DNA from: Polaromonas sp.
GTDB lineage: Bacteria > Pseudomonadota > Gammaproteobacteria > Burkholderiales > Burkholderiaceae_C
Length of the DNA stretch: 40,795 bases
NCBI RefSeq assembly: GCF_030682935.1
Contig: NZ_JAUXNA010000400.1
Coordinates: 1-40,795, forward strand
Direction of reading: 5' to 3'
Shown: positions 21,479 through 32,141 of the stretch, piece by piece
Layout: each line of letters starts with the position of its first letter
Numbering within the stretch: position 1 is the stretch's first letter
Notes under the pieces: model-generated
Seen by the model: only the letters and a program-made list of their open reading frames with translations
Told to the model about the DNA's origin: nothing
The model's database searches: none
Program-made: the position numbers and the translations under genes

Positions 21479-22963
21479 TTACAGCCCGAGCGACTCAAAC
21501 AGGCTGTCCATGCGCGCGGTCACGTCGGCATCCATGGTGATGGTGCGGCCCCATTCGCGCTGGGTTTCGCCGGGCCATTTGTTGGTCGCGTCGAGCCCCA
21601 TCTTGCTGCCCAGGCCGCTCACGGGCGAGGCGAAGTCGAGGTAGTCGATGGGCGTGTTTTCCACCATCATGGTGTCGCGCGCCGGATCCATGCGCGTGGT
21701 CAGGGCCCAGACCACTTCGCGCCAGTCGCGCACGTTCACGTCGTCATCGACCACGACGATGAACTTGGTGTACATGAACTGGCGCAGGTGGCTCCACACG
21801 CCCATCATCACGCGGCGCGCGTGGCCGGGGTAGGCTTTTTTGATTTGCACCAGCGCCATGCGGTAGCTGCAGCCTTCGGGCGGCAGATAGAAGTCGGTGA
21901 TTTCCGGGAACTGGCGCTGCAGCAGCGGGATGAACAGCTCGTTCAGGGCCATGCCCAGCACGGCGGGCTCGTCCGGGGGTTTTCCGGTGTAGGTGGAGTG
22001 GTAAATCGGGTCTTGGCGCATGGTGATGCGGTCCACCGTGAACACCGGAAACCAGGCCTGCTCGTTGTAGTAGCCGGTGTGGTCGCCATACGGTCCTTCG
22101 AGTGCGTGCTGGTAACCGCTGGCGTGGCTGGCGTCGGGGTAAATGTGGCCTTCGAGCACGATTTCGGCCGAGGCCGGCACGCGCAGCGGCACGCCCAGCG
22201 CCTTCACCACCTCGGTGCGCGCACCGCGCAGCAGGCCGGCGAACTGGTACTCGGACAGGCTGTCGGGCACGGGCGTGACGGCGCCCAGGGTGGTGGCCGG
22301 ATCAGCCCCCAGCGCCACGGCCACGGGGTAGGGCTCGCCCGGGTGGGCGGCGCAGTGCTCGCGGAAATCCTGTGCGCCGCCGCGGTGCGCGAGCCAGCGC
22401 ATGATGAGCTGGTTGCGGGACAGCACCTGCTGGCGGTAGATGCCCAGGTTCTGCCGTGCCTTGTGCGGGCCCTGCGTGATGACCAGGCCCCAGGTGACGA
22501 GCGGCGCCACGTCGCCGGGCCAGCAGTGCTGCACGGGCAGGCGCGCCAGATCGACGTCGTTGCCTTCCCAAATCACTTCCTGGCATGGCGCCGAGCGCAG
22601 CTCTTTGGGCGCCATGTGCCACAAGGTTTTGAGCAGGCCGCCCAGGCCCAGCATGTCCTTGAGGCCTTTGGGCGCCTCGGGCTCCTTGAGCGCGGCGAGC
22701 AGTTCGCCAAATGGACGCAGCCCCTGCAGGTCGGCCACGCCCATGGCACGCGCCACGCGCGCCGGGGTGCCAAACAGGTTTCCCAGCACCGGCATGCTGT
22801 GTCCGGTTGGCTGCTCGAACAGCAGGGCCGGGCCGCCGGCGCGCAGCACGCGGTCGCACAGGGCGGTCATTTCGAGGTGGGGCGAGACGGGCACGGCGAT
22901 GCGGCGCAGCTCGCCGGCTTGCTCCAGCTGGTTAATGAAGTCGCGCAGGTCTTGGTAGGGCAT
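21479..22963 (-). CDS. ubiD: 4-hydroxy-3-polyprenylbenzoate decarboxylase UbiD
   Basis: UbiD, 494 residues, uses prenylated FMN made by UbiX to decarboxylate 3-polyprenyl-4-hydroxybenzoate, the first step after prenylation in ubiquinone synthesis, and needs no O2. The start at 22963 ([20 protein letters not shown]) matches E. coli UbiD; the open frame upstream begins with TTG and reads low-complexity sequence. The family active-site block [16 protein letters not shown] is present, as are [18 protein letters not shown] and the C-terminal [21 protein letters not shown] divided by the metal-site region. It is last in the ubiU operon, 74 bp after ubiX, the largest gap in the run. Confidence 0.95.
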
Positions 22964-23037
22964 GGGGTTGGCTTGTGGGGTGATTGCTTCGCCCTCTGCT
23001 TCGCAAGAGAAGGCGGGGGCGGTGCTCAAGGCGCAAG

Positions 23038-23634
23038 TCAAGCCGCCTCGGGAAGTGTCAGCCCTTCCCAGCGCGGCGCCAGGGTGTGGGGGATGTCGAG
23101 CAAGTCAAGCGCGCGGGCCACGCTGTAGTCCACGATGTCGCCGACCGACTGCGGGCGCAAATAAAACGCGGGCACCGGCGGGCAGATGATGCCGCCCATT
23201 TCGGTCACGCTGACCATGTTGCGCAGGTGTGTGAGGTGCAGGGGCGACTCGCGCACCAGCAGCACCAGGCGGCGGCGTTCCTTGAGCATGACGTCGGCCG
23301 CGCGCGTGAGCAGGTTGTCGCCCAGGCCGTGCGCCACCGCCGCGAGCGTGCGCATCGAGCACGGCGCAATCACCATGCCGCTGCACCTGAAGGAGCCGCT
23401 GGCAATGGCCGCGCCCACGTTGGCTGCGTCGTGCACGTGGTCGGCCATGGCTTCGACGAACGCGCGATCCATGTCGAGTTCGTGTTGCAGGTTGCGCCAG
23501 CCGGCGTCGGACACGACAAGGTGCGACTCGACGTCCGCCATGCCCTGCAACACCTGCAGCAGGCGCGTACCGTACACGGCACCGCTGGCACCCGAGATGG
23601 CGACGATGATGCGGCGCGGCGCGGGGGTGTTCAT
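23038..23634 (-). CDS. ubiX: Flavin prenyltransferase UbiX
   Basis: UbiX, 198 residues, attaches a dimethylallyl group to FMN to make prenyl-FMN for UbiD. It starts with the flavin-binding strand-loop [19 protein letters not shown], has the conserved [20 protein letters not shown] block near 115-135, [17 protein letters not shown], and the C-terminal [17 protein letters not shown]. The length is typical. Its start overlaps the upstream DGC-domain gene by 4 bp (ATGA), indicating coupled translation and tying the two small proteins together. Confidence 0.95.
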
Positions 23635-24035
23635 CCGGCCGTCGCAGTCTTCCCGGAGGCGCCCGGCGATGCGGCCTGCAGGTCGGCTTTCACGCGCTCC
23701 AGCACCGTGGCGGCCTGCCCGGGGTCAAAGTCTTCGTGTCGAAGCTTTCTCACGCCGTAGTGCTGTAGCTGGTAGTGGCGGTCGGCTTCAATACCGTGTC
23801 GTGCCAGGCTGCTCTTCACGCAGACCAGCGGGCAGCCATCCAGCGCAATGACGGGCCGGCCCGAGTGGGCGGTTTTGAGCAGGCTGGGCACATCGCCGCC
23901 TACGCCGGCAATGCACGACATTTCGGCCACGCCGCTGCGGTCCAGCCGAATCGCGACGTGGTTGGCCAGTTGCGCGGCGCTGGAACAGCCGGAACAGGCA
24001 TAAACCAAGGGGTGATGGGTTGCGTGAGGCGTCAT
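23631..24035 (-). CDS. DGC-domain putative zinc-binding protein in the ubi operon
   Basis: A 134-residue soluble protein of the DGC-domain family (putative zinc-binding). Cysteines are arranged as YACSGCSSAAQLAN at the N-terminus (C14, C17), an MSCIAGVGGD segment, and the eponymous LDGCPLVCVKSSLARHG. The start at 24035 is used because the homologous part begins there; upstream codons overlap ubiT. Its function is unknown in the family. Here it lies 2 bp after ubiT and overlaps ubiX by 4 bp, so it is a translationally linked member of an O2-independent ubiquinone operon. A role in metal or Fe-S supply for UbiU/UbiV, or as a redox-active thiol protein, is inference. Confidence 0.85.
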   Translation of the reverse strand: MTPHATHHPLVYACSGCSSAAQLANHVAIRLDRSGVAEMSCIAGVGGDVPSLLKTAHSGRPVIALDGCPLVCVKSSLARHGIEADRHYQLQHYGVRKLRHEDFDPGQAATVLERVKADLQAASPGASGKTATAG

Positions 24036-24037
24036 TT

Positions 24038-24535
24038 TTATCTTCCCGCTGGCGAACCTGTTTTTGCGGAGCGCCACTGGGCCATGCGTGCCAGCACCTG
24101 GTGCGGCGTCCACTGCTGCAGATCGAACACGGGCAGTTCCAGGGCGTCGAGCGCGTTCTTGACCACCAGTCCCAATTCGGTATCGCCCTCTATGGACATG
24201 CGCCGGCTGAAGAACAGCGTGTCGGGGTCCTCCTGGCGCTGCGCAAGGCGCAGGAAATCATGGGCGCTGGCGCTGAGGGTCAGGTCGGTGGCCTGCTGCC
24301 GGGGGCAGGCGGCAAAGCGCTGGCCTGTCCACGCAAAATCAAAGGTCAGGCCTGCATCGCGTACATGAATGCGCAGCTTTTTGTTCAGCAAAAACTGGCG
24401 CACGTCGCCGGGAAGCAGGCGTGCCAGACCCAGGTTGAGCGCGGTCACCAGCAGCATCGAACCCGGGTAGGCGGGCAGGCTGGACAGCAGCGATGCCACG
24501 GGTTGGGGCAGTACAAAGGAAGAAGGCGCGGTCAT
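24038..24535 (-). CDS. ubiT: O2-independent ubiquinone biosynthesis accessory factor UbiT
   Basis: UbiT (YhbT), 165 residues, has an SCP2 lipid-binding fold and in E. coli is needed for ubiquinone synthesis without O2, probably by handling hydrophobic intermediates, in place of aerobic UbiJ. The diagnostic C-terminal block DTLFFSRRMSIEGDTELGL and VVKNALDALELP is nearly the same as in E. coli YhbT. The N-terminal part has amphipathic helices (NLGLARLLPGDVRQFL) ahead of the beta-sheet domain (about 45-140). It lies 21 bp after trhA and 2 bp before the DGC gene. Presence with ubiU and ubiV in one operon makes the assignment firm. Confidence 0.93.
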   Translation of the reverse strand: MTAPSSFVLPQPVASLLSSLPAYPGSMLLVTALNLGLARLLPGDVRQFLLNKKLRIHVRDAGLTFDFAWTGQRFAACPRQQATDLTLSASAHDFLRLAQRQEDPDTLFFSRRMSIEGDTELGLVVKNALDALELPVFDLQQWTPHQVLARMAQWRSAKTGSPAGR

Positions 24536-24556
24536 GGTGGTCCAGTCAGGCTACGG

Positions 24557-25174
24557 TCATGCTACATAAAGCAGCACGGTGAAAAAATGGCAGGTGCTGC
24601 CCCCGAGCACAAACAAATGCCACAGGCCGTGACCGTGGCGCACCTTGTGGTCGGTGGCGTAAAAAATAATGCCCAGCGTGTAGCAGGCGCCGCCCGCCGC
24701 CAGCCAGGCAAAACCGGCAGGCGTGAGCGCTTGCCACAGCGGCGACACGGCCACCAGCGCAAGCCAGCCCATGAGCACATAAATGACGAGCGACAGCACG
24801 CGCGCGCCGTTGGCAAACCAGATTTCCTGCACGATGCCCAGCAGCGCCAGCCCCCAGACCACGCCCAGCAGCGACCAGCCCCAGGCACCGCGCAGCGACA
24901 CCAGCGCGAACGGCGTGTAGCTGCCTGCAATCAGGAGGTAGATGGCGCAGTGGTCCAGCTTGCGCAGCACGTTTTTGGCGCGGCCACGCACACTGTGGTA
25001 CAGCGTGGAGAAGACATACAGCGACACCAGCATGGCGCCGTAGATGCTGAAGCTGACGATTTTCCAGGCATCGCCCAGGCGTGCCGCCAGCACGATCAGC
25101 AGCACCGAGCCGACCAACGCCAGCCCGGCCCCCGCCAGATGACTGATGCTGTTGAAACGCTCGCCGTGGTACAT
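24557..25174 (-). CDS. trhA: PAQR / hemolysin III-family membrane protein
   Basis: A 205-residue seven-helix membrane protein of the hemolysin III (PAQR-like) family. Signature blocks are GERFNSISHLAGAGLAL, the STLYHS motif, KLDHCAIYLLIAGSYTP and the C-terminal HLFVLGGSTCHFF; the conserved His and Asp residues in these blocks form a metal site in PAQR proteins. Start 25174 is chosen by homology; the frame extends upstream into ubiV without similarity. The hemolysin name is historical; E. coli TrhA has been linked to membrane-fluidity homeostasis. It lies 13 bp after ubiV and 21 bp before ubiT, an unusual place for it, so a link to membrane or quinone lipid homeostasis is possible. Confidence 0.88.
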   Translation of the reverse strand: MYHGERFNSISHLAGAGLALVGSVLLIVLAARLGDAWKIVSFSIYGAMLVSLYVFSTLYHSVRGRAKNVLRKLDHCAIYLLIAGSYTPFALVSLRGAWGWSLLGVVWGLALLGIVQEIWFANGARVLSLVIYVLMGWLALVAVSPLWQALTPAGFAWLAAGGACYTLGIIFYATDHKVRHGHGLWHLFVLGGSTCHFFTVLLYVA

Positions 25175-25187
25175 GGTGCTCAGGTGT

Positions 25188-26099
25188 TCAGGCCGGTGTG
25201 GCCTGCTCCAGCCCGGGGCGGCCGTGCCAATAACCATTGCAGCCCTGCTCGGGCATGAGCGGCTGCATGCGTGCCAATGCCTCCTGCGGGGCCAGCGCTT
25301 GCGCACGTGCGGCATCGAACAGCGCGATCACGTCGGCCGTGTGCTGTGCCTGCGGGCTCAGGCGGACGACATCAACGCCCAGGGCGCGCATGTCGTCCAG
25401 TGTGTCCACCAGGTTGTAGACCCGCGAAGACTGCGTTTGCGTGCCGTTAAGCACCAGGAATTCTTCGCGCTCTCGTGTGTTGAGCAGCAGGCCATCCGGA
25501 TGCTCCAGGCAGCTGAAGCGGCAGTCGTCCTTGGGCAGGTTGCGGTGCCGCGCCGTGAAGCAGCGTGCCGAGTAGGCCAGCGGCATGCGGCCGTAGGCAA
25601 ACACCTCGGTCTGCAGCCCGTCGGGGCGACCTTGCTGCAGCACGGCCAGATCGTCTTTTTTCATTTCCAGGGGCATCACCCAGCGGCTGGCGCCCAGCGA
25701 CGCCATCCATTGCAGAGACGGCAGGTTGTAAAGGTTCAGATGCGGGCCGGCCACGAACGGGACCTTGCCCGCGAGGCACTGCACGGCCCCCATGTCGTTG
25801 GCTTCAACCAGAAAGTCGCCATTCGCTGCAATTTTGTGCATGGTGCCCACCTCGGCGCCTGATTCGAGCAGCACCTGCGTGGACAGCACCACTTGCTTGC
25901 CTGCGTCGCGCAATTGCGCGGCGATGTCAAGCCAGTCGGCCAGGCGCAGCTCGTGGCGGCGCGAGCAGACGGTTTCGCCCAGGTAGACCACATCGACCGG
26001 CGTCGTGGCCATGGCCTCGTAGAAGCTCAAGACAGTATCCCGCGGCCAGTAGTACAGCAGCGGACCGAGGGCAATTTTCAGGGGGTGGGTAGTCATCAT
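25188..26099 (-). CDS. ubiV: O2-independent ubiquinone hydroxylation protein UbiV
   Basis: UbiV (YhbV), 303 residues, forms a heterodimer with UbiU that hydroxylates ubiquinone precursors without O2 (prephenate serves as oxygen donor in the E. coli work). Four Fe-S ligand cysteines are present: C45 (GETVCSRRHELR), C180, C193 and C197 (SARCFTARHRNLPKDDCRFSC), against E. coli C39, C180, C193 and C197. The U32 fold signature FAYGRMPLAYSARC is clear; annotation as a collagenase-like peptidase would be wrong. ATGs at 26099 and 26096 are adjacent; the ubiU stop overlaps by 4 bp. Confidence 0.95.
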   Translation of the reverse strand: MMTTHPLKIALGPLLYYWPRDTVLSFYEAMATTPVDVVYLGETVCSRRHELRLADWLDIAAQLRDAGKQVVLSTQVLLESGAEVGTMHKIAANGDFLVEANDMGAVQCLAGKVPFVAGPHLNLYNLPSLQWMASLGASRWVMPLEMKKDDLAVLQQGRPDGLQTEVFAYGRMPLAYSARCFTARHRNLPKDDCRFSCLEHPDGLLLNTREREEFLVLNGTQTQSSRVYNLVDTLDDMRALGVDVVRLSPQAQHTADVIALFDAARAQALAPQEALARMQPLMPEQGCNGYWHGRPGLEQATPA

Positions 26100-27139
26100 T
26101 TCCAGGGCCGGTGGTAAGCGCCTAGCGTGTGCTGCTGGCCTTCGGCCACTTTGTCGAGGCTGGTCATCCAGACCGGTTTGGGCGCGTAGCGGTGCGGATT
26201 GGTGATGCAGTGGTCAATGGCTTCACGCCACACCTTCGTGACCTGGGCGACATAGGCCGGGCTGCGCTGGCGCCCTTCGATCTTGATGGCGCGCACGCCC
26301 ATTTTCATGAGCTGGGGCAAGAGCTCGAGCGTGTTCAGGCTGGTGGGTTCCTCGAGGGCGTAGTAGTTTTCGTCATTGCCCACGTCGAAACGTCCCTTGC
26401 ACAGCGTGGGGTAGCCAGCGTTTTCGCCATCGGCATAGCGGTCGATCAGCACGCCGTTCAGGCGCGACTCCAGCCCCCTGGGTGTTTGCTGCCAGCGCAC
26501 GGCCTTGGGTGGCGAACACACGCCGTGCGTGTTGGGCGCCTCGCCGGTGACATAGGACGACAGCGCGCAGCGTCCTTCGACCATCACGCACAGGCTGCCA
26601 AAGCCGAACACTTCGATCTCCACCGGCGTCTTCTCAATCACCTGCTGTACTTGCGTGAGCGACAGCACGCGCGGCAGCACCGCGCGCACCACGCCGAATT
26701 GCTCGCGGTAGAAATTGATGGCGTCGTAGTTGGTGGCCGATCCCTGCACAGACAGATGCAGCCGCAGCTTGGGATAGCGCGAAACGGCATAGTGCATGAG
26801 CCCCGGATCGGCCAGGATCACGGCATCCGCACCCAAATCGACGGCCTTGTCCAGCGCCGTGCGCCAGAGCCCGGGGTTGGACGCCTGCGGGTAGGTATTG
26901 AGCGCCATGAACACCTTGCAGCCACGCTCATGGGCATAGCGGATGCCCGTGGCCATGGCCGCTTCGTCAAAGTTCAGGCCGGCAAAATTGCGGGCGTTGG
27001 TTGCATCGCGCAATCCCAGGTAAACGCAACTGGCGCCGTTGTCCACGGCGGCTTTCAGGGCAGGAAGACTGCCTGCGGGGCAAACTAACTCTAAGGGGGC
27101 AGCGGCGGCTGCTTCGGAAAATCGGGTGGAAGGTTCCAT
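26096..27139 (-). CDS. ubiU: O2-independent ubiquinone hydroxylation protein UbiU
   Basis: UbiU (YhbU), 347 residues, is the [4Fe-4S] partner of UbiV in O2-independent ring hydroxylation of ubiquinone intermediates. The four cluster cysteines are C184, C191, C208 and C247 (GSLCVMVEGRC, NTHGVCSPP, YPTLCKGRF), with spacings 7, 17 and 39 identical to E. coli C169, C176, C193 and C232. Other strong matches are NARNFAGLNFDEAAM, VRWQQTPRGLESRLNGVLID and SLNTLELLPQLMKMG. It has about 15 extra N-terminal residues (MEPSTRFSEAAAAAP) before the canonical start. It leads the operon and follows an FNR-type promoter about 46 nt upstream. Confidence 0.95.
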   Translation of the reverse strand: MEPSTRFSEAAAAAPLELVCPAGSLPALKAAVDNGASCVYLGLRDATNARNFAGLNFDEAAMATGIRYAHERGCKVFMALNTYPQASNPGLWRTALDKAVDLGADAVILADPGLMHYAVSRYPKLRLHLSVQGSATNYDAINFYREQFGVVRAVLPRVLSLTQVQQVIEKTPVEIEVFGFGSLCVMVEGRCALSSYVTGEAPNTHGVCSPPKAVRWQQTPRGLESRLNGVLIDRYADGENAGYPTLCKGRFDVGNDENYYALEEPTSLNTLELLPQLMKMGVRAIKIEGRQRSPAYVAQVTKVWREAIDHCITNPHRYAPKPVWMTSLDKVAEGQQHTLGAYHRPWK

Positions 27140-27184: not shown

Positions 27185-27233
27185 GCATGGAAGATTACGC
27201 CTCTTGGCGCTGGCGCATTTTGACCTTGGTCAA
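27185..27233 (-). promoter_or_regulatory. FNR-type promoter of the ubiUV operon
   Basis: A perfect dyad TTGACCTTGGTCAA lies at 27220-27233 (TTGAC-N4-GTCAA, the FNR/Anr half-site arrangement with T to C in the fifth position). On the minus strand a -10-like TAATCT is at 27197-27192, which puts the start at about 27185 and the dyad centre at -41.5, the exact class II FNR activation position. No -35 is recognisable, as expected for an activator-dependent promoter. The leader would be 46 nt. E. coli ubiUVT are known to be FNR-controlled. Confidence 0.7.
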
Positions 27234-27297: not shown

Positions 27298-27337
27298 AAA
27301 AAAAAAGTCCCTCAGGTGCTTGACCCAAGGGACTTTT
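27298..27337 (-). terminator. Rho-independent terminator of tRNA-Met
   Basis: On the minus strand AAAAGTCCCT (27337-27328) pairs perfectly with AGGGACTTTT (27312-27303) around a 15-nt loop, followed by a run of T (nine A on the plus strand, 27298-27306). It lies 8 bp past the tRNA 3' end, so it ends the tRNA transcript before the ubiU promoter. Confidence 0.9.
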
Positions 27338-27345
27338 CTGGAATT

Positions 27346-27422
27346 TGGTGGTGATAGGTGGACTTGAACCACCGACATCAGCATTATGAATGCTGCGCTC
27401 TAACCAACTGAGCTATATCACC
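27346..27422 (-). tRNA. tRNA-Met (anticodon CAT)
   Basis: A 77-nt tRNA with an encoded CCA end. The acceptor stem GGTGATA/TATCACC is fully paired, the D arm contains AGCTCAGTTGGTTAGAGC, the anticodon stem CAGCA/TGCTG encloses the loop TTCATAA with CAT at the anticodon, and the T arm has GGTGGTTCAAGTCCACC. The G1-C72 pair and A-rich features fit elongator Met rather than initiator (which has an unpaired 1-72 position). A lysidine-modified tRNA-Ile cannot be fully excluded from anticodon alone. Confidence 0.95.
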
Positions 27423-30247: not shown

Positions 30248-30976
30248 CTATTGGGGTTTGGCGCTGGCCAGCAACTTCTCGACCTGCTGGGCGCTGATGG
30301 CGCCCGGCACGCGCGTGCCGTCGGCAAAAAACACGGTCGGCGTGCCGGTGATCTTGTGCTTCTTGCTGAAGTCGAGGTTGCGCTCCAGCGCGGCGGTGTC
30401 GCAGCTGGCCTTGGCGGGTGTCTGGTCGCGCACCATCCAGTCGAGCCAGGCCTTGCCCTTGTCTTTGGCGCACCAGATGTTTTTCGACTTTTCGACTGAG
30501 TCGGGGCTCAGGATCGGCAGCAAAAAGGTGTAAATCGTCACATCGTTCACTTTTTGCAAGTCGCGTTCAAAGCGCTTGCAATAGACGCAGTTGGGGTCTT
30601 CAAACACGGCCAGCTTGCGTTTGCCGTTGCCGTGCACCAGGATGAATGCGTCTTTCAACGGCAGTGCGGAAAAGTCGATGGCGCTGAGTTTTTCAACCCG
30701 TTCTTCGGTTAGATTGCGCTTGGCCTTGGTGTCAATCAGGTTGCCCTGGATCAGAAAGTTGCCCTCGGCATCGGTGTAGAAAATGTCGCTGTCGTTGACC
30801 CGGATTTCGTACAGGCCGTTCATCGGCGTCTTGCTGACTTCATCGATTTTGGCCAAGCTGGGCAGGCGTTCGGCCAGGTTTTTGCGTATGGCGGCTTCCT
30901 GCGCAAACGCGGCACCCAGGCTGCAGGCCAGCAGGCCCATCAAGCCGGCACGGACGATCGATTTCACTGGTTTCAT
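30248..30976 (-). CDS. dsbC: Thiol:disulfide interchange protein DsbC
   Basis: A 242-residue periplasmic disulfide isomerase. The signal peptide is KPVKSIVRAGLMGLLACSLG with cleavage after AFA. The N-terminal dimerisation domain (about 28-95) precedes a thioredoxin domain with the active site C130-V-Y-C133 (FEDPNCVYCKRFERD), and a second Cys pair (NIWCAKDKGKAW and AKASCDT) matches the structural disulfide of DsbC. The cis-Pro loop is TGTPTVFF. ATG 30976 is preferred to ATG 30982 because AGGA lies 6 nt upstream of the former but touches the latter. It follows the UbiH-type gene by 43 bp. In the cell it is reduced by DsbD. Confidence 0.93.
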   Translation of the reverse strand: MKPVKSIVRAGLMGLLACSLGAAFAQEAAIRKNLAERLPSLAKIDEVSKTPMNGLYEIRVNDSDIFYTDAEGNFLIQGNLIDTKAKRNLTEERVEKLSAIDFSALPLKDAFILVHGNGKRKLAVFEDPNCVYCKRFERDLQKVNDVTIYTFLLPILSPDSVEKSKNIWCAKDKGKAWLDWMVRDQTPAKASCDTAALERNLDFSKKHKITGTPTVFFADGTRVPGAISAQQVEKLLASAKPQ

Positions 30977-31019
30977 GGTCATTCCTGGTATGTTCAAAAA
31001 AATTCGTTGATTCAATAGC

Positions 31020-32141
31020 TCACAAGCCCGCCGCCTGGCGCGCCACCCAGCGCTTGAGCAGGTCGCTGCGCGCAAACCCCTTCATGCCCCAGTTGCGCAA
31101 CGCCCGCCACGGGCCATCGTTCTGTGCAAACAGGCCGTGCAGGCCATCGGTCACGGCGCCCATGGTGGCCACGTCAGCCTTGCGCGCCCGCTCATAGCGG
31201 CGCAGCAGTTTTTCGTCGCCCAGCGCACGCCAGTATTCACGTTGCGCAATCACCTCAGCCAGGCAGGCCGCATCGGCCAGGCCCAGGTTCAGCCCCTGTC
31301 CGGCCAGCGGGTGCACGGCATGCGCCGCATCTCCGGCCAGCGCCCAGCCGGCTCCGACCCAGTGCTCGGCCGTAGACAGCGCCAGCGGCCAGCTGGCCCG
31401 CTCGCTGCTCAAGCGCAAGTGGCCCACTTCCTGGCCCGCCACCGCCTGCAGTTCGGCACAAAATTCTTCGGGCGCCAGCGCTTGCAGTGCGCTGGCGCGC
31501 GCCACGGAGACAGACCAGACCAGCGCGAAGGAGTTCCCGTCCGCGCCAGACATCGGCAAAAGCGCCAGAATCTCGCCTTTGGTAAACCACTGGCGGGCGA
31601 TGCCGCCGTGGGGCGTGCTGGACTCGAGCCGGGCGGCAACGGCTTTTTGCGGATAGGGCTTGACGCTCCACTGCGCGCCAAATTCATCGCGGCTGCGGCT
31701 TTTCTGGCCTTCGCAGACCACGGTGAGCGCGGCCTTGACCGGGGCCTGCACGGTTTCAATCTGGGGCTGGTAGCGCACCGCCTGGGTCAGTTGCTGCTCC
31801 AGCGCGGGCACGTCCACAATCCAGGCCAGCGCCTCCTGGTCCACGCTTTGCGCCGTGAAGTCGAGCTGGCCGCCGTCGTCGCCCCAGACCCGCATGGCCC
31901 GCACGGGGGTGGCCAGGGGCGCGTCGGGCCAGGCCCTCAGGGTTTCCAGCAGGTCCCGCGAGGCGCTGTTCAGGGCGTAGGCCCGCACATCCGTGCGAAC
32001 CTCGGCCGCCGTTGGCCCCGCCGGCGTGATGACAGGCTGGCTGACCAGGGCCACGCGCAAGCGCTCGCGCGCCAGCAGCAAAGCCAGCGTGCGGCCCACC
32101 ACGCCGTCGCCGCGAATACAGACATCAAAGGGTTTGGACAT
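31020..32141 (-). CDS. UbiH/UbiF/Coq6-type FAD-dependent monooxygenase
   Basis: A 373-residue class A flavin hydroxylase of the ubiquinone family, using O2 and NAD(P)H to hydroxylate ubiquinone ring intermediates. The FAD-binding GxGxxG is near the start (RGDGVVGRTLALLLARERL), and the second FAD motif is GDAAHAVHPLAGQGLNLGLAD, diagnostic for UbiH/VisC proteins. The intermediate DG motif is altered (VVCEGQKSRSRDEFG, Asp to Glu), and the protein is slightly short. Which ring position it acts on cannot be told from sequence. It is divergent from the MOSC gene (106 bp) and upstream of dsbC. It is the aerobic counterpart to the UbiUV pathway 4 kb away. Confidence 0.85.
   Translation of the reverse strand: MSKPFDVCIRGDGVVGRTLALLLARERLRVALVSQPVITPAGPTAAEVRTDVRAYALNSASRDLLETLRAWPDAPLATPVRAMRVWGDDGGQLDFTAQSVDQEALAWIVDVPALEQQLTQAVRYQPQIETVQAPVKAALTVVCEGQKSRSRDEFGAQWSVKPYPQKAVAARLESSTPHGGIARQWFTKGEILALLPMSGADGNSFALVWSVSVARASALQALAPEEFCAELQAVAGQEVGHLRLSSERASWPLALSTAEHWVGAGWALAGDAAHAVHPLAGQGLNLGLADAACLAEVIAQREYWRALGDEKLLRRYERARKADVATMGAVTDGLHGLFAQNDGPWRALRNWGMKGFARSDLLKRWVARQAAGL

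Follow-up and report, generated by a model that had tools for sequence, protein, structure and literature searches.

A 40,795-nucleotide stretch of DNA from Polaromonas sp. (NCBI RefSeq assembly GCF_030682935.1, contig NZ_JAUXNA010000400.1; hereafter the window) carries seven genes, ubiU-ubiV-trhA-ubiT-dgc-ubiX-ubiD, between positions 27139 and 21479, all on the minus strand. We favor, with reasonable though not high confidence, the interpretation that they form one operon for O2-independent, UbiUVT-type ubiquinone synthesis which is switched on at low O2 by an FNR-type regulator, and that the DGC-domain protein encoded by dgc is most likely an accessory in denitrifiers. Judged from its sequence, the locus belongs to a known pathway and is a conserved, operon-like unit with an extended gene content, a view we base on the gene identities, the tight junctions, the conserved gene order, the FNR-type site upstream, and the presence of narG and nirS in the assembly. 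In the mechanism we propose, an FNR-type regulator would turn on the seven genes when O2 is low, UbiU and UbiV would carry out the O2-independent ring hydroxylation, with UbiT presenting lipid intermediates and UbiX and UbiD supplying the decarboxylation needed by aerobic and anaerobic routes alike. The DGC protein would be a small alpha/beta protein which binds a metal or an Fe-S cluster via five invariant cysteines and acts with UbiT and UbiU-UbiV, for instance by shielding or servicing their Fe-S clusters during nitric oxide production.

Gene identities and layout of the cluster

Searches with NCBIfam and Pfam profiles placed every one of the seven genes above a curated cut-off, in agreement with the original prediction of a seven-gene cluster on one strand. 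The first two genes encode UbiU, the U32-family Fe-S subunit of the O2-independent hydroxylase (26096..27139, 347 aa; NF047963, 560 bits against a cut-off of 440), and its partner Fe-S subunit UbiV (25188..26099, 303 aa; NF047965, 415 bits, cut-off 275). They are followed by trhA (24557..25174), which encodes a 205-aa PAQR/hemolysin III membrane protein (NF011669, 251 bits, cut-off 80; PF03006), and by ubiT (24038..24535), whose 165-aa product is an SCP2 lipid-binding accessory factor (NF047962, 141.5 bits, cut-off 46.9; PF02036). The 134-aa DGC-domain protein is encoded at 23631..24035 (PF08859, 113 bits, cut-off 27). Farthest downstream are ubiX (23038..23634, 198 aa), for the flavin prenyltransferase which makes the UbiD cofactor, and ubiD (21479..22963, 494 aa), for 4-hydroxy-3-polyprenylbenzoate decarboxylase. 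UbiX exceeds its subfamily cut-off (NF004685, PRK06029; 284 bits, cut-off 188) and UbiD that of the ubiquinone-type equivalog (NF008175, PRK10922; 843 bits, cut-off 788). The start codons of trhA (25174), dgc (24035), and ubiD (22963) are ATG codons that we selected. The junctions are as tight as had been claimed, running from -4 to 21 bp from ubiU through ubiX (ubiU/ubiV -4, ubiV/trhA 13, trhA/ubiT 21, ubiT/dgc 2, and dgc/ubiX -4 bp) with 74 bp between ubiX and ubiD, and the seven genes are predicted to be cotranscribed.

The published [4Fe-4S] motifs of the E. coli proteins are CX6CX16CX38C in UbiU and CXnCX12CX3C in UbiV (PMC6747719). By pattern matching, the Polaromonas UbiU contains the full motif at residues 184-247, and UbiV contains CX12CX3C at residues 180-197 with another cysteine upstream at residue 45, so the E. 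coli cysteine spacing read from the sequence earlier holds for both proteins. Across the loci of relatives described below, the UbiU motif was present in 164 of 166 best matches and the UbiV motif in 163 of 165, the misses being L110 and L144 plus the truncated L003 and L046. The Polaromonas locus resembles the E. coli ubiT/ubiUV (yhbT, yhbUV) system in that it encodes orthologues of UbiU, UbiV, and UbiT, shares the cysteine spacing, and is predicted here to be under FNR-type control. The layouts differ. E. coli K-12 has two units, with ubiT oriented divergently from ubiUV, and the annotation of the 9 kb inspected there lists no ubiX, ubiD, trhA, or DGC gene. The statement that E. coli ubiX and ubiD lie outside the ubiUV unit was thus correct for this 9 kb.

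Conservation of gene order and of the upstream region

We surveyed gene order around ubiUVT in three sets of loci. The near set comprised the best 80 of at least 572 relatives by UbiU, from a collection of 84,980 species genomes, with titles mostly of Rhodoferax, Polaromonas, Acidovorax, Hydrogenophaga, and other Comamonadaceae. The family set comprised 45 UbiU loci from 44 genomes (one genome, G251, has two copies) drawn evenly from the wider family without the genome of the window, and the order set 40 loci from other families of the order, presumably Burkholderiales. Gene-content counts required at least 6 kb downstream of ubiU, which excluded 23 of 80 near, 4 of 45 family, and 2 of 40 order loci. 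Three records belong to both the near and the family set (L042=L149, L030=L164, and L068=L157), so that the 136 loci counted amount to 134 distinct ones.

The seven-gene cluster is not peculiar to this Polaromonas genome and is common to many near relatives. Exactly this gene set was present at 22 of the 57 near loci and at 5 of the 41 family loci, 27 in total, of which 26 are distinct. Among the 57 near loci, ubiT was found in 57, ubiD in 54, ubiX in 51, dgc in 42, and trhA, in the same slot, in 27. The 41 family loci included 22 with ubiUVT alone, 19 with ubiD, 18 with ubiX, 17 with dgc, and 6 with trhA. None of the 38 order loci from other families had ubiX, ubiD, or trhA in the unit, and dgc directly followed ubiT in 3 of them. 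The order of the genes was violated in none of the 136 loci, and ubiUV were the constant members of the cluster. Because the same order recurs across genomes without violation, the arrangement is more than chance. The survey of Burkholderiales that had been suggested as a check therefore yields a conserved order with ubiX and ubiD only in Comamonadaceae-type loci. On a UbiU tree of 137 rows, built by a quick method and including the repeats of shared records, we counted 1 change for ubiD, 4 for ubiX, 10 for dgc, and 12 for trhA. The single change suggests that ubiD apparently joined ubiUVT once in the Comamonadaceae-type lineage, and the ubiX-ubiD addition to ubiUVT is, judged from these loci, the architecture of this one lineage. 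By the same counts, trhA and dgc appear to be optional members, repeatedly gained or lost in fixed slots. Clusters at L034, L042, and L056 keep ubiD without ubiX, so that ubiX is either elsewhere or lost there. The genome with two ubiUVT copies (L142 and L146) has them about 28 kb apart, one of them near narG and with a convergent dgc beside ubiT.

A limited literature search returned no description of ubiU joined to ubiX or ubiD in the Comamonadaceae-type group. The clustering of ubiTUV with further ubi genes has already been noted in Magnetococcus marinus (PMC6747719), which resembles the present case but is a distant organism. Closer to hand, two loci of a family in the same class (f56; L197 and L198) have a UbiD homologue gene and ubiUV on one strand. 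There, however, ubiD lies directly upstream of ubiU and ubiT is encoded on the other strand, some 2.5 kb past ubiV, and the UbiD homologues score lower to our UbiD profile, at 708-722 bits. This ubiD-ubiU-ubiV layout probably represents a separate joining, meaning that ubiD probably became coupled to ubiUV on two or more occasions.

The region upstream of ubiU contains an FNR/ANR-type palindrome, TTGACCTTGGTCAA, at 27220..27233, 80 bp before the ubiU start codon. The FNR consensus is TTGAT-N4-ATCAA. The palindrome is the sole exact match to TTGAYNNNNRTCAA (TTGAY-N4-RTCAA) in the window, where 0.11 would be expected, and 9 of 100 shuffles had at least one match. We scanned 400 bp upstream of the profile-aligned ubiU start in the three sets of loci, excluding two loci with less than 250 bp upstream. 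Exact sites were found in 28 of 79 near, 2 of 45 family, and 9 of 39 order loci, and sites with at most one mismatch in 73 of 79, 26 of 45, and 18 of 39, against a background of 0.9% (exact) and 5.7% (at most one mismatch) in 5,000 random 400-bp pieces of the same loci. No exact site occurred in the 400 bp before any of the six other genes in these sets. The rarity of exact sites in the family set counts against FNR control, weakening the case but not removing it. Even the E. coli site is imperfect, and in that species FNR activates ubiUV as well as one ubiT promoter (PMC10470549). Given this distribution, we infer that the unit is under FNR control. A scan for sigma70-like promoters within the unit gave one weak match beyond ubiD, not above chance. 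Farther upstream of ubiU is a tRNA-Met gene (27346-27422), after which a terminator-like hairpin on the minus strand (27301..27339; a 17-pair stem followed by a T-run) would separate the tRNA from the operon.

The DGC protein and its association with UbiU

The assembly of the Polaromonas genome carries narG, nirS (along with a second cytochrome d1-type gene), and NnrS together on one contig (C341), which makes denitrification likely. A second genome of the same genus, present as one contig (G208), had no UbiU, DGC, narG, nirS, or NnrS match at the thresholds used, indicating that the anaerobic gene set varies within the genus. We compared the occurrence of DGC and UbiU in a family sample of 150 genomes from 126 genera, an order sample of 120 genomes, and a phylum sample of 377 genomes. 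Counts are given as both/DGC only/UbiU only/neither, and the statistics ignore kinship. In the family sample, UbiU was found in 45 genomes, DGC in 31, and both in 29 (29/2/16/103, Fisher p 3e-17). The association was also seen in the order sample (13/1/28/78), where 13 of 14 DGC genomes have UbiU, and in the phylum sample (18/3/99/257), where 18 of 21 do. Removal of the 22 family genomes with clustered ubiX/ubiD left DGC in 10 of 23 genomes with UbiU and in 2 of 105 without it.

The dgc gene is also found within 300 bp of ubiT in three arrangements. It lies downstream of ubiT on the same strand in the window, its relatives, and families f13, f21, and f32; downstream on the opposite strand in four genomes of family f54 and in L146; and upstream on the same strand in L196, at a distance of 265 bp, with a similar placement at 548 bp in L198. 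Among the 18 phylum-sample genomes with both genes, 14 have them within 15 kb of each other on one contig, while three of the remaining four have them on different contigs and one has both at contig ends. On a DGC tree of 101 rows with many unresolved forks, we counted 10 changes in whether dgc lies within 600 bp of ubiT.

In the DGC protein, five cysteines (C14, C17, C41, C68, and C72) are invariant among 65 aligned members and also among 27 members of a second set, which overlaps the first but is more diverse. An AlphaFold2 model based on the 65 aligned members is confident (predicted local distance difference test, pLDDT, 87; predicted template modeling score, pTM, 0.80) and has an alpha/beta fold with strands at residues 10-13, 38-41, and 62-66, and the invariant cysteines fall at or shortly after the strand ends. 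Such a placement could suit a metal or Fe-S site. A limited open-access literature search found no function for PF08859, and the "DGC domain" of the literature found refers to diguanylate cyclases, not to this family. Foldseek gave no solved relative at E <= 0.001 among the best 50 of 1018 matches, and the DGC profile had no match up to E 1 among sequences of solved structures.

Two weak Foldseek matches, 5odh_D (rank 30, prob 0.38) and 5odc_D (rank 37, prob 0.35), are to a heterodisulfide reductase complex whose chain D we take to be MvhD. The FlpD/MvhD (PF02662) iron-sulfur protein of heterodisulfide reductase complexes carries a cluster, and we considered it as kin to DGC. The two are alike in cysteine spacing and in these weak matches but differ in that no profile match is significant. 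We compared DGC with 12 PF02662 domains (A3) and 5 longer ones (A2), using UbiX as a control. The profile comparison gave P 0.002 versus 0.046 for UbiX, hhalign probabilities were 3, 14, and 13, the best one with a gapped alignment, and PF02662 was absent among the Pfam families matched by the 65 DGC members. We therefore rejected this kinship and do not claim it.

Alternative explanations and the place of the operon in ubiquinone synthesis

That the unit belongs to the O2-independent ubiquinone pathway, as the original prediction held, is well in keeping with these results, but its description as a self-contained module does not hold. The seven genes include no ubiA, ubiB, ubiC, ubiE, or ubiG (the rest of the genome was not searched for them), which places these steps outside the unit, and UbiD is likely shared with the aerobic route. 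A profile search of the assembly (3.59 Mb in 403 contigs, 89% complete) gave one UbiD-family match in this draft, the ubiD of the operon. Both E. coli pathways, O2-dependent and O2-independent, require ubiX and ubiD, and mutants in either gene have no ubiquinone left under anaerobic conditions and have lost most of it under aerobic ones (PMC6747719). The operon's UbiD thus probably serves aerobic synthesis too. In addition, the window contains a gene for a UbiH/UbiF-family O2-dependent hydroxylase (31020-32141, minus strand; TIGR01988, 306 bits) 3.9 kb upstream of ubiU, and together with the shared UbiD this suggests that the organism probably has both ubiquinone pathways. A DsbC-like gene (30248-31075), scoring under the cut-off of its model, follows the UbiH/UbiF-family gene. 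Given the single UbiD match and the E. coli requirement for ubiX and ubiD with O2, one could propose that the operon mainly serves to make ubiquinone aerobically or to decarboxylate some other aromatic compound, and that ubiUVT joined it by chance. We regard this as very improbable, as UbiD passes the ubiquinone-type equivalog cut-off, the FNR-type site stands before ubiU and before none of the other genes, and it is ubiUV that stay constant in the cluster.

The role of DGC is a closer question. It is conceivable, if doubtful in our estimate, that, in denitrifying Pseudomonadota, the family provides O2-independent ubiquinone synthesis with a metal or Fe-S component which is built on its cysteines, has so far gone unrecognised, and cooperates directly with UbiT and UbiU-UbiV; its job may then be to protect the clusters against nitric oxide or to act as the hydroxylase's missing electron-transfer partner. 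The main rival, to which we give a similarly low probability, is that dgc and trhA are passengers and that DGC is a denitrification or nitric-oxide response protein which shares anaerobic islands and a regulator with ubiUVT. DGC is indeed also associated with narG, nirS, and NnrS in the 150 family genomes, and dgc and trhA are the members which change state most often on the UbiU tree. Nevertheless, DGC follows UbiU even within family-sample genomes that have narG (27/1/13/31), nirS (24/1/9/14), or NnrS (29/1/15/33), as well as in those without narG (2/1/3/72, p 0.01) or nirS (5/1/7/89), and within UbiU genomes the three markers add little to the occurrence of DGC (p 0.33, 0.08, and 0.36, respectively). 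Six same-genus pairs that differ in UbiU were readable among the matches listed, with genomes without a listed match counted as negative and other pairs possible; DGC follows UbiU in four, is absent from both genomes in two, and runs opposite in none, and two of the four pairs have nirS in both members. Moreover, ubiT itself recurs as the gene close to dgc, in the three arrangements described.

Several observations weigh against a tie between DGC and the ubiquinone pathway. The family genomes without NnrS (0/1/1/70) are uninformative, and the co-occurrence counts are uncorrected for phylogeny. The E. coli control genome has UbiU with no DGC match, and DGC is absent from 99 of the 117 UbiU genomes of the phylum sample, from which it follows that DGC is not needed for the chemistry. 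Linkage is also looser in the order sample, with DGC and UbiU on one contig in 4 of 13 genomes and on different contigs in 9. Of 12 DGC loci retrieved from the family, we scanned the neighbours of eight that are unlinked or loosely linked to the ubi operon, and in five of these dgc adjoins nirS (L168, L175), NnrS (L169, L172, L175, L178), or a Crp/FNR gene (L168). L173 has a sensor kinase gene as neighbour, and L167 and L170 have no nirS, NnrS, or Crp/FNR gene there; in L171 and L176, nirS and NnrS lie within 5 kb of dgc by position. The DGC-UbiU link may therefore run through denitrification. An accessory role for DGC in denitrifiers that make ubiquinone by the UbiUVT route remains the reading we prefer. 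As for the other optional member, TrhA affects membrane energetics in E. coli and B. subtilis, and the E. coli trhA gene is a member of the FabR regulon (PMC9017321). TrhA may plausibly help to adjust the membrane when O2 is low.

In the lineage with the extended operon, the decarboxylation genes common to both routes would be tied to the anaerobic branch of ubiquinone synthesis, which predicts that decarboxylation responds to low O2 there. The interest of the cluster lies mainly in its DGC gene. How UbiU-UbiV hydroxylates without O2, and with which electron partner, was described as an open question in a 2019 paper (PMC6747719); the related TrhP is labelled prephenate-dependent in its profile, and later work may have moved on from the 2019 state. 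With five invariant cysteines, a tendency to occur with UbiU, and a gene often found beside ubiT, DGC is a concrete candidate partner for UbiU-UbiV.

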